Origin: Rhodothermales bacterium
Lineage (GTDB): Bacteria > Bacteroidota > Rhodothermia > Rhodothermales > JAHQVL01
Reading direction: 5' to 3'
DNA: 50,602 nt
NCBI GenBank assembly: GCA_034439735.1
Contig: JAWXAX010000239.1
Location: 1-50,602, forward strand
Position numbers and translations under genes: made by a program. The notes beneath the pieces are model-generated. The model did no database searches and was not told the origin of the DNA. It was given only the letters and a program-made list of their open reading frames with translations. How positions within the stretch are numbered: position 1 is the first letter of the stretch; every line of letters starts with the position of its first letter. Below are positions 27,907 through 31,121 of this stretch, piece by piece.

Positions 27907-27966
27907 AAACGTTGATTCGTTGAACGTTTTCTCGTTGAACGTTTCAATCGTTGAACGTTTCAACGT
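27907..27966. repeat. AACGTTCAACG repeat array between REC-kinase and DUF2786 genes
   Basis: Full copies of CGTTGAACGTT at 27918-27928, 27933-27943 and 27949-27959 are spaced 15-16 bp apart, with partial copies at both ends. The array fills the gap exactly, and its right end overlaps the stop codon of the REC-kinase gene (27960-27962). Confidence 0.8.
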
Positions 27967-29090
27967 CCCATCAACTCCTCGGCAATGGCTTCCGTGATGA
28001 CGATCGGGAGGGCGATACGGGAGCAGGTGCCCTTCTGGAGCACGCTTTCCAGGGTCAGTGCGCCATCGTAGAGTTCGACGATGCGTTTGGCGATGTAGAG
28101 CCCTATGCCGAGGCCCTGCTGCTCGTAGCTATCGCGTTCAAATTGCATGAACGCATTGATCTGGTCGATGTGGGATTTGCGCATGCCGCGCCCGGAGTCG
28201 CGAAATTCGATCACATAGAACCCATCCGGCGTGGTGTGGGAGGTGAGGAGGACGGGTGCGCCGGTGGTCGAGAACTTGAACGCGTTTTCGAGTAACTCGT
28301 GGATGAGGACTCGGAAGTGGTCCGGGTTGATGCGGATGGCCGACGGCGCAAGGTCCAGCACGAGGTCATTCAGCCGTTGGCGCTTGTTGGCATCCTTTTC
28401 GGCGATACACCGGATGAATTCGAACGCATCCTCGATATAGGTATGTTTGAGCGCGTCGAATTTTTCGGGGTCGGACTGCAGGACTTCGATCTCGGTGAGG
28501 ACCGCGTACTTCTCGGCCAGTTCCTCGAGCCGGCCGCCGGCGGCGTACACATCCCGCATCATATCCCTAATCTCCCCCATCTTAAACAGATCCGTCTCTT
28601 CCGAGATCATCTGGGCGTACCCGATGATGACGCCCAGGGGCGTCCGAAATTCGTGCGGGATGACCCGGGAGATATTGCGTCCGAGTTCGCGTAGTCGCTC
28701 CTCGAACGTATGGTGATGACGGGCCTGTTTGTCCAGCCGTACTCGTACGGCGTTTAACACGTCGTCCGCCTTGAAGGGCTTGGTGAGATAGTCGTCCGCG
28801 CCCTGGTTCATGCCGAGGCGCTGCTCGGCGGGATTGGCCAGCGCCGTGAGGAAGATGAAGGGGATCGTCGCGGTTGTGTGGTCTCTGCGGAGCGAGGCCA
28901 GGACATCGTAGCCACTCATCTCGGGCATCATCGCATCCGAGATAATGAGGTTCGGAATTTCGCTCCGGACGAGCGTGACGCCCTCGAATCCGTTTCGAGC
29001 ACCGAACACCTCGAATCCCTTGGCCTCCAGGAGGTCGGTCAGGTTATCGAGGATGTTCGGATCGTCTTCTATCAACAGGATCGATGTCAT
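27960..29090 (-). CDS. Response regulator–histidine kinase hybrid (REC-HisKA-like-HATPase)
   Basis: 376 residues. REC domain 1-120: acidic pocket IEDD, phospho-acceptor Asp about 52 in IISDAMMPEMSG, Thr 82 and Lys 104 in LTKPF. The kinase core follows, with RVIPHEFRTPLG (His about 146), N-box HELLENAFKFS, G1 DSGRGM and G2 GLGIGLYIAKR. An N-terminal receiver on a kinase usually lets a partner kinase control the second kinase. The upstream kinase gene overlaps by four bases (ATGA), making a direct phosphotransfer partner likely. No output DNA-binding domain is present, so another target must exist outside this operon. Confidence 0.9.
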   Translation of the reverse strand: MTSILLIEDDPNILDNLTDLLEAKGFEVFGARNGFEGVTLVRSEIPNLIISDAMMPEMSGYDVLASLRRDHTTATIPFIFLTALANPAEQRLGMNQGADDYLTKPFKADDVLNAVRVRLDKQARHHHTFEERLRELGRNISRVIPHEFRTPLGVIIGYAQMISEETDLFKMGEIRDMMRDVYAAGGRLEELAEKYAVLTEIEVLQSDPEKFDALKHTYIEDAFEFIRCIAEKDANKRQRLNDLVLDLAPSAIRINPDHFRVLIHELLENAFKFSTTGAPVLLTSHTTPDGFYVIEFRDSGRGMRKSHIDQINAFMQFERDSYEQQGLGIGLYIAKRIVELYDGALTLESVLQKGTCSRIALPIVITEAIAEELMGR

Positions 29091-30121
29091 GAATCGCTGG
29101 TCGGTTCAAGCTGACAATGTCGGGGAAGCATGATGGTGAACGCAGTCCCTTTTCCCAAGGTCGATTCGACGGTGATGCTTCCCTGATGCATGGAGACCGC
29201 GCGCTGCAGGACCGTCAGGCCCAGGCCAGTGCCCGGACGAGTGTCGACGTTGCTGGCACGGTGAAACGGTTCGAATAGGTAGGGCACGTCTTCGGGAGGA
29301 ATGCCGATTCCTTCGTCCGTGACACTCAGGATGAGAGTATCGACCTCGGAGCGCATGGTAATAACGATTCGCTTGCCGGGGTCAGAGTATTTGACGGCGT
29401 TGGACACCAGATTGGTGACGGCCATCCGAATCAGACTCGGATCGGAGGTCATCATCACGCCGTTCTCCGGTAACGTCAGATCCACGCTGTGTGCGTTCAG
29501 AAGGCCGCCCATGGTCAGTTCTTCCATGAGATCCAACAGATACGCCCGCGCGTCCAATTCCTGTTGGTGGCATTCCATGTGGCCGGAATCGATACGGCCG
29601 AGGATCAACACATCTTCGAGTAGACCGGTCATGTGCGCGACATTGCTCTCGATCCGATCCAGATGTTTCTGAATTTTATCGGCCGGCCAGAGGGTATAAA
29701 ACCGATTGAGGAGTTCCGCCGACGAATGGATGGTGGTCAGCGGCGTACGGAACTCGTGCGAGGCCATCGCGATGAACCGCGTCTTTAATTCGCTGAGCTC
29801 CTTTTCCTGTTCGAGCGCCTTGCGCATTTCCTCGCTGGCCTGCTCGGCGGCGATTTTGGCGAGCTGCAGCTCGCGGTTGGAGGCCGCGAGGTCTTCCAAC
29901 GCGCGGTTGAGCGCCGAGGTGCGTTCGTGGACCTTGGTCTCCATGGCGATGGCCGCCTGGAACAGCACAAACGAATCGCCCTGCCAGTCGAGGCCTCGCT
30001 CCACCCGGTTGCTCAGCGCCCGGTTGATTTTTTCAAGCCTGACGATGCGTGCTTGGAGGGGTTCACAGGAGGGGCAGTCCGGCGCGTCACACGGGGAGGT
30101 ATGGGTCGATTCAGGCTGCAT
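29087..30121 (-). CDS. Soluble sensor histidine kinase with Cys-rich N-terminus
   Basis: 344 residues with no membrane helix. The N-terminus has three Cys at 11, 16 and 19 (C-x4-C-x2-C). Next comes a long coiled coil (RIVRLEKINRAL...KVHERTSALNRAL), then HisKA with MASHEFRTPL (His 122), an N-box with N in VTNLVSNAVKYSD, G1 DEGIGIPP and G2 GTGLGLTVLQRA. Kinases of this type sit next to FIST proteins in many bacteria, where FIST is thought to bind a small ligand and pass the signal to the kinase. It overlaps the FIST gene by 11 bp and the REC-kinase gene by 4 bp, so the three are one transcriptional unit. Confidence 0.9.
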   Translation of the reverse strand: MQPESTHTSPCDAPDCPSCEPLQARIVRLEKINRALSNRVERGLDWQGDSFVLFQAAIAMETKVHERTSALNRALEDLAASNRELQLAKIAAEQASEEMRKALEQEKELSELKTRFIAMASHEFRTPLTTIHSSAELLNRFYTLWPADKIQKHLDRIESNVAHMTGLLEDVLILGRIDSGHMECHQQELDARAYLLDLMEELTMGGLLNAHSVDLTLPENGVMMTSDPSLIRMAVTNLVSNAVKYSDPGKRIVITMRSEVDTLILSVTDEGIGIPPEDVPYLFEPFHRASNVDTRPGTGLGLTVLQRAVSMHQGSITVESTLGKGTAFTIMLPRHCQLEPTSDS

Positions 30122-30938
30122 GACCGATCGCCACGCCCGTCAGCGTCTGGTTTACGTGCATCGCATTAAATTGGTCGTCGTAGGTGCTGAAGCCGATGAC
30201 GTTGTTGGCGGCATAGATCCGGCCGACCTGTTCCTTGATCCCATTTTGCTCCATGTCGCCGTTTATTCCGGCGACGAGCAGGCGGGACGAGTCCGCCTGG
30301 GTGACGACCATCTTGTCGTCCGTCGCCACGAAGTGTTCCGTTTTGAATAGGGTGAAGGGGAGGTGGGTGTCTATGAGGATAAACACCGCCGAGCGTTCGT
30401 GGAAGTCGCCCTCATGGAAAACGAAGGTGTGTTCGAAGCGCGTACCATCGGCGGCGGAACCACCGAACCGCTGGATGTCGCCCAGTTGTCCGAATAGAGC
30501 ATTGGCAATGACTTCTTCCTGATGTGAAAGCCCATCGATGAGCATCAATCCGAACGTGTTGCTGCCCGTCGGGAGGCATCCGCGTGCCCGAAGGTCGGTT
30601 AGGGCCGACTGGGCGAGGAACGCGGCCTTACTCATCGGCGAGTCGTCGATCTCATCGATGCGCGAGATCGCGACCTGAAAGTCGGTTACTTCGAAACTGA
30701 CGCCGGTCAAGGATGCTGTCCGATAGCCGAGCGGCCCGATTTCGCCGGCCGTCGTGCAACCCACCAGCGGGGTGGCTGGAAACTGCGCGCGCAGGGCTTC
30801 CCCCAACTCGGAGAGGGGACAGCCAGGCGAACAAAAAAACAACGTGTGCACTGCGTCGCGCTGGAAGAGCGCGTCGTGGAGTTCTTGCGTTGCGAGCGAG
30901 GCGCCATGGCGGAGGCTGGCGGTGTCTTGCGCGATCAT
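30111..30938 (-). CDS. FIST-domain sensor protein with internally deleted FIST_C
   Basis: Starting at the ATG 30938 gives 275 residues. FIST_N is intact: LFFCSPGCPLSELGEAL, LVGCTTAGEIGPLGY and GLMLIDGLSHQEE. In the C-terminal domain the sequence goes from VTQADSSRLLVAGINGD straight to MEQNGIKEQVGRIYAANNVI and the family-typical end GFSTY...MHVNQTLTGVAIG. In FIST proteins as I know them, about 90-110 residues separate the 'EINGxPA' strand from this end. They appear to be missing in frame. FIST proteins are thought to sense amino acids or similar ligands. A longer frame to 31112 exists, but its first codons lie inside a terminator hairpin, so the later start is preferred. Confidence 0.75.
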   Translation of the reverse strand: MIAQDTASLRHGASLATQELHDALFQRDAVHTLFFCSPGCPLSELGEALRAQFPATPLVGCTTAGEIGPLGYRTASLTGVSFEVTDFQVAISRIDEIDDSPMSKAAFLAQSALTDLRARGCLPTGSNTFGLMLIDGLSHQEEVIANALFGQLGDIQRFGGSAADGTRFEHTFVFHEGDFHERSAVFILIDTHLPFTLFKTEHFVATDDKMVVTQADSSRLLVAGINGDMEQNGIKEQVGRIYAANNVIGFSTYDDQFNAMHVNQTLTGVAIGHAA

Positions 30939-31082: not shown

Positions 31083-31121
31083 TAAAAAATACGGGGGGTC
31101 TGTTGCGGACACAGACCCCCC
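31083..31121 (-). terminator. Rho-independent terminator between the coiled-coil lipoprotein gene and the FIST operon
   Basis: A perfect 11-bp stem GGGGGGTCTGT / ACAGACCCCCC (31093-31103 with 31111-31121) and a 7-base loop. On the minus strand it is followed by a T-rich tract (TATTTTTTATC). It ends the transcript of the lipoprotein gene (stop at 31218) and places the FIST promoter downstream of it. Confidence 0.85.

Follow-up and report, generated by a model that had tools for sequence, protein, structure and literature searches.

The nosP-like gene described here has lost about 101 residues in frame, a real loss in one lineage. It lies in a stretch of 50,602 nucleotides from a Rhodothermales bacterium, which was analysed as a whole and is called the window below, and its product is a rare natural deletion variant of the nitric-oxide sensor family NosP, not a new kind of sensor. 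The original prediction had left the family unnamed; judged by its sequence, the protein is a relative of the NO-sensing FIST protein NosP. Excerpts of the published accounts describe NosPs as heme-binding, NO-sensing FIST proteins with control over a partner kinase (PMC12570481; PMC8846402), and call both their ligand binding and the transfer of the signal to the kinase poorly understood (PMC8846402). With regard to function we infer throughout, and with a probability of about 55%, that the short protein is still a regulator of its kinase and that its sensing is altered. The features are collected in Table 1.

Table 1. Coordinates of the short nosP-like gene, its parts and the genes overlapping downstream (positions in the window).
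Feature	Position	Strand	Basis
nosP-like gene, internally deleted NosP (FIST) protein, 275 aa	30111..30938	-	ORF, Pfam, NCBIfam
Retained FIST_N part, NosP positions 5-222	30258..30911	-	NF041558; conserved sites below residue 200 intact
Deletion junction, where ~101 residues (303 nt) of the relatives are missing	30254..30258	-	NF041558, alignment, paralogue
Retained FIST_C end, NosP positions 325-368, with invariant His261	30123..30254	-	NF041558, alignment
Histidine kinase, 344 aa, overlaps nosP by 11 bases	29087..30121	-	ORF, Pfam, N-terminal homology, motifs
Receiver-HisKA-HATPase protein, 376 aa, overlaps kinase gene by 4 bases	27960..29090	-	ORF, Pfam, motifs

The reading frame of the short gene is uninterrupted and runs into that of the kinase, and the ORF coordinates bear out both the open frame and the overlap of the original prediction. 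A GTG upstream, at 31112, would lengthen the frame; because this codon sits within a terminator-like hairpin, read by eye from the sequence and spanning it, the ATG at 30938 is preferred as the start. Codon-position GC is alike on either side of the deletion junction and in both kinase genes. The Pfam FIST domain (PF08495), which belongs to any NosP, is matched over positions 4-188 of 189 (E 2.4e-38), and the FIST_N part is complete, as first claimed. FIST_C (PF10442) has no Pfam match in the short protein, even at E<=10, so this domain is not complete; only the last 44 NosP positions are left. Both domains are found by Pfam in a full-length paralogue of the same genome. The NCBIfam NosP profile NF041558 matches the short protein with E 2.5e-78 and 263.7 bits, below its cut-off of 450, and, unlike in NosP, profile positions 223-324 are absent; since the cut-off is missed, the short protein is a NosP relative or derivative and not a full member. 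In the genome search this profile yields two matches in the same frame, to positions 5-222 and 325-368, with a single codon between them (30257-30255) in place of the 102 absent positions. An adjacent kinase of the NahK/NosK type, another mark of NosP systems, is present as the overlapping gene with its homologous N-terminal region. Pfam, NF041558 and the relatives agree with the central claim of the original prediction, namely that the middle of FIST_C was lost in frame next to an intact kinase partner.

The alignment comprises the short protein, the best 80 of at least 567 relatives, whose start codons were picked by script, and the full-length paralogue. After residue 227, a block of 101-102 residues that is absent from the short protein is present in all 80 of these best relatives, and the paralogue carries 303 nt at the junction site. 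The size guessed beforehand, 90-110 residues, was accurate, and the break proposed at about 30240 lies near the junction at 30254-30258. A NosP match in two abutting pieces, together with a block present throughout the best 80 of at least 567 relatives, argues for a protein that still regulates its kinase. The extent of the loss argues against it: among columns conserved at >=90% in the best 80 of at least 567 relatives, 28 of 89 fall in the lost block, which also took three conserved cysteine columns (conserved in 73, 72 and 79 of the same 80). His202 and His261, invariant in the family (80/80 of the best 80 of at least 567), are both retained. The missing piece was not found elsewhere in the genome, where the FIST_C model matches only the frame of the paralogue.

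The loss of these 28 columns also favours the main rival explanation, an early pseudogene, which we consider unlikely on balance. According to it, a loss-of-function deletion hit one NosP gene of the two in this genome, leaving a misfolded or inert product and a kinase that lacks its sensor, and NO sensing falls to the paralogue. The genome does have this second, full-length NosP-like gene with a hybrid kinase of its own; however, the open frame of the short gene, the codon-position GC alike on either side of the junction and the fact that the frame still reaches the kinase overlap do not suit an inert copy. The retention of His202 and His261, and of most of the FIST core in the predicted model, would instead accord with a true minimal NO sensor, in which the retained core suffices for heme binding and NO sensing. 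This is improbable: a heme ligand of NosP was not found in the excerpts of the NosP literature searched, and the presence of the lost block in all of the best 80 of at least 567 relatives indicates that it normally matters.

Selection was assessed at near-invariant sites over 82 sequences, leaving out, for each sequence, the relatives at least 70% identical to it. From residue 200 onwards, 5 of 16 such sites are altered in the short protein (R220L, E224G, E228D, G254D and E255D), in a region in which 74 of the 82 sequences break none, five break one, L085 two and L135 four; below residue 200 the short protein has 0 of 18 altered. This within-protein contrast has a Fisher p of 0.016, with the cut at residue 200 set post hoc; in an earlier version based on 61 columns the counts were 5/25 versus 1/36 (p 0.038). 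The branch of the short protein has a length of 0.73, and its neighbours in the tree, in a weakly supported grouping (81/80), have 0.66 and 0.74; because these lengths are similar, there is no sign of decay of the whole protein. By median identity to the relatives, the short protein ranks rather low in the first two regions, with 6 and 7 of the best 80 of at least 567 below it, and closer to the centre of their range in the tail, with 21 of the 80 below it. At the sequence level this fits a FIST_N part held by selection and residues near the lost block that were released or re-adapted. The uneven spread of the changed sites, the ordinary branch length and the two retained histidines argue for continued regulation of the kinase, and the near-invariant residues that did change argue against it. 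The latter, five of them beside the junction, are what a pseudogene would show, although the intact sites below residue 200 and the ordinary branch length are not. The changes at R220, E224, E228, G254 and E255 could be the start of decay, or older than the deletion.

The same changes bear on the age and reality of the event. That the deletion is recent, as had been suggested, is unproven, as positions on either side of the junction that are almost constant in the family have changed; with near-invariant sites altered there, an assembly error or a deletion of very recent date fits less well. It has to be considered that the true gene is full length and that 303 bp were dropped at 30254-30258 through misassembly or a mixture of strains, given that the genome consists of 304 contigs and that this is the sole short form found. 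We regard this as very improbable: the loss is in frame, and dropped reads would not alter near-invariant residues on its flanks. Moreover, the segment has one full-length genomic DNA match and only two short secondary ones, and collapse of a repeat is unsupported because no further full-length DNA copy is present in the genome.

A contig scan of species genomes with the short protein as query gave no match, and a second scan with the alignment as query confirmed at least 567 relatives, among the best 80 of which there is no second internally deleted form. Nor is there another internally deleted FIST form among the matches listed in a PF08495 census of the phylum (395 genomes, 89 with a match), or an internal gap like that of the short protein among those listed in NosP censuses of the class of L059 (385 genomes, 42 with a match) and the phylum of L064 (377 genomes, at least 127 with a match). 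Open frames below 370 aa in the PF08495 census are those of the window (339), G353 (325), G350 (351), G120:C12 (329) and G380 (93); by their coordinates, the matches in G350, G120 and G380 lie near contig starts. The frame in G353 was rejected as a second short form, as it stops early and represents a different loss: this FIST protein of 316 aa (L138:2034-2984) ends inside FIST_C, an independent C-terminal loss, and a PAS-histidine kinase gene lies downstream of it. Other candidates were set aside as well, namely the short frames of G1248, G669 and G691, which are at contig ends, that of G588:C37, which begins at base 13, G1189, which lacks the N-terminal part instead, and a Mameliella match aligned gap-free, whose gene is in fact full length (1158 bp). 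As no second short form was found, the event is a deletion in one lineage and not a conserved subtype. The alternative of a minimal FIST sensor subtype is unsupported by the best 80 of at least 567 relatives, all of which contain the block in the orthologue comparison proposed at the outset, and by the three censuses; a conserved short subtype is rejected on present sequence data. Two genomes of the same family gave no match to the short protein in the search for relatives, so that the event cannot be dated by a close orthologue. None of the papers listed by a literature search for an earlier account of a truncated NosP mentions NosP.

The AlphaFold2 model of the short protein has a pLDDT of 83.2 and a pTM of 0.83, and that of the full-length relative L059 has 95.8 and 0.93. 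The alignments for modelling (A2 and A3) contain 70 of the best 80 of at least 567 relatives, with L063, L066, L085, L088, L110, L129, L131, L132, L133 and L136 left out. Both models match the FIST domain of FBXO22 and structures of the chorismatase and cyanuric acid hydrolase type; for the cyanuric acid hydrolase 4nq3_A, the short model gives Z 10.8 (rmsd 4.0, 232 residues) and the full-length model Z 11.1 (rmsd 4.0, 243 residues). The pLDDT of the short model, with its matches to FBXO22 and cyanuric acid hydrolase, argues for a protein still able to regulate its kinase. On the other side are residues ~200-230, with block-mean pLDDT of 52-57, and the fact that AlphaFold is insensitive to damage such as an internal deletion. 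A PDB sequence search with the short protein gave no match, and a PDB profile search gave three hits, all unconvincing. The overall fold is shared with the FIST domain of human FBXO22, which the L059 model matches with Z 21.0 (rmsd 3.2, 254 residues) and the short model with Z 15.6 (rmsd 3.2, 226 residues). Excerpts of a preprint describe this domain as built of three repeats and similar to chorismatases and cyanuric acid hydrolases (PMC11185555). Unlike NosP, FBXO22 is a eukaryotic F-box protein, and the same excerpts mention no obvious pocket for a ligand (PMC11185555).

Residues 203-295 of the full-length model match small beta-barrels weakly (Z 3.7-5.2), which is a hint only. From a reading of the secondary structure, the deletion would take most of a beta-barrel-like insert together with helix 297-312, strand 315-323 and helix 324-333. 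The models suggest a loss of most of the inserted module, one core helix and one core strand, with most of the FIST core staying. As a core helix and strand would go as well, this is no clean excision of a domain; the repeat boundaries are not followed, which argues against a functional regulator. A bolder proposal, that the protein is a working FIST sensor cut to most of the three-repeat core without the inserted module, maintained because it binds the kinase and co-adapted at its junction residues, appears rather doubtful. If it were true, such a core-only sensor would separate, in nature, the part of NosP that binds the kinase from the part that senses.

The partner kinase has intact H, N, G1, F and G2 motifs. 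In the receiver-HisKA-HATPase gene, probably the third gene of the operon, the receiver aspartate is intact along with the H, N, G1 and G2 motifs; all were located with the usual motif patterns. The N-terminal 112 residues of the partner kinase match the beginning of the nosP-adjoining gene in 64 of 80 loci (best 80 of at least 567), with identities of up to 50-58% in the best loci; 12 of these 80 have no NahK-like kinase neighbour. In four of the best 80 relatives (L063, L066, L085 and L088), NosP continues into a protein of 779-869 aa, and in three of these four single proteins the kinase part matches the N-terminus of the window kinase, in frame after NosP, which supports direct contact between NosP and kinase. 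The N-terminal region of ~90 residues (29787-30121) reaches those identities, versus ~34-37% for the whole kinase in the closest loci, and may be a NosP docking module. The kinase misses the cut-offs of the NahK/ErcS profiles NF041831 (103.4 of 1500 bits) and NF041832 (116.7 of 400 bits), and the sequence claim is limited to a NahK-like N-terminus plus a kinase core. Intact kinase motifs and an N-terminus of this type, which adjoins nosP at 64 of the 80 loci and is part of the same protein as NosP at three others, argue for a protein that still regulates its kinase; the 12 of 80 relatives with no such kinase adjoining argue against it.

The proposed mechanism is that the short gene would encode a NosP-type auxiliary sensor of the overlapping histidine kinase, from which an in-frame deletion of ~303 bp in one lineage would have cut out the middle of FIST_C. 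The short protein would still be made and would stay bound to the N-terminus of the kinase through its retained core. It would still set kinase activity, with the NO/heme response altered or lost, and would thus act as a detuned or fixed regulator, and phosphate would pass from the kinase to the receiver domain that the third gene encodes. NO sensing is not to be assumed for a NosP-like gene merely adjoining a kinase, and a protein that has most of the FIST core and its kinase, minus one block, offers a test of the sensing and kinase-contact parts.

Relatives in species genomes reach up to 47% identity to the short protein over the best segment, and five plasmid NosPs of Azospirillum, which come with a kinase of the NahK/ErcS family, have 40.7-44.2%. 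In Azospirillum, as at the short gene, the kinase gene lies directly 3' of nosP. The paralogue (G000:C23) is 36% identical to the short protein over residues 24-230 and, unlike it, has FIST_C; its 404 bits against the NosP profile are also just below the cut-off of 450, and in the tree it is placed apart from the short protein, on a long branch whose position is uncertain. Directly after this full-length gene comes a hybrid histidine kinase of its own that carries receiver-like domains (L051:3285-6331, ~13.3-16.3 kb of the contig). Some nosP-type genes (L045, L046, L049, L050 and L137) have aldehyde-linked neighbours: on plasmids of Azospirillum, Leisingera and Novosphingobium they are near aldehyde dehydrogenase and DUF779 genes, and that of Mameliella is near an S-(hydroxymethyl)glutathione synthase. 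These NosP systems may serve aldehyde or alcohol metabolism.
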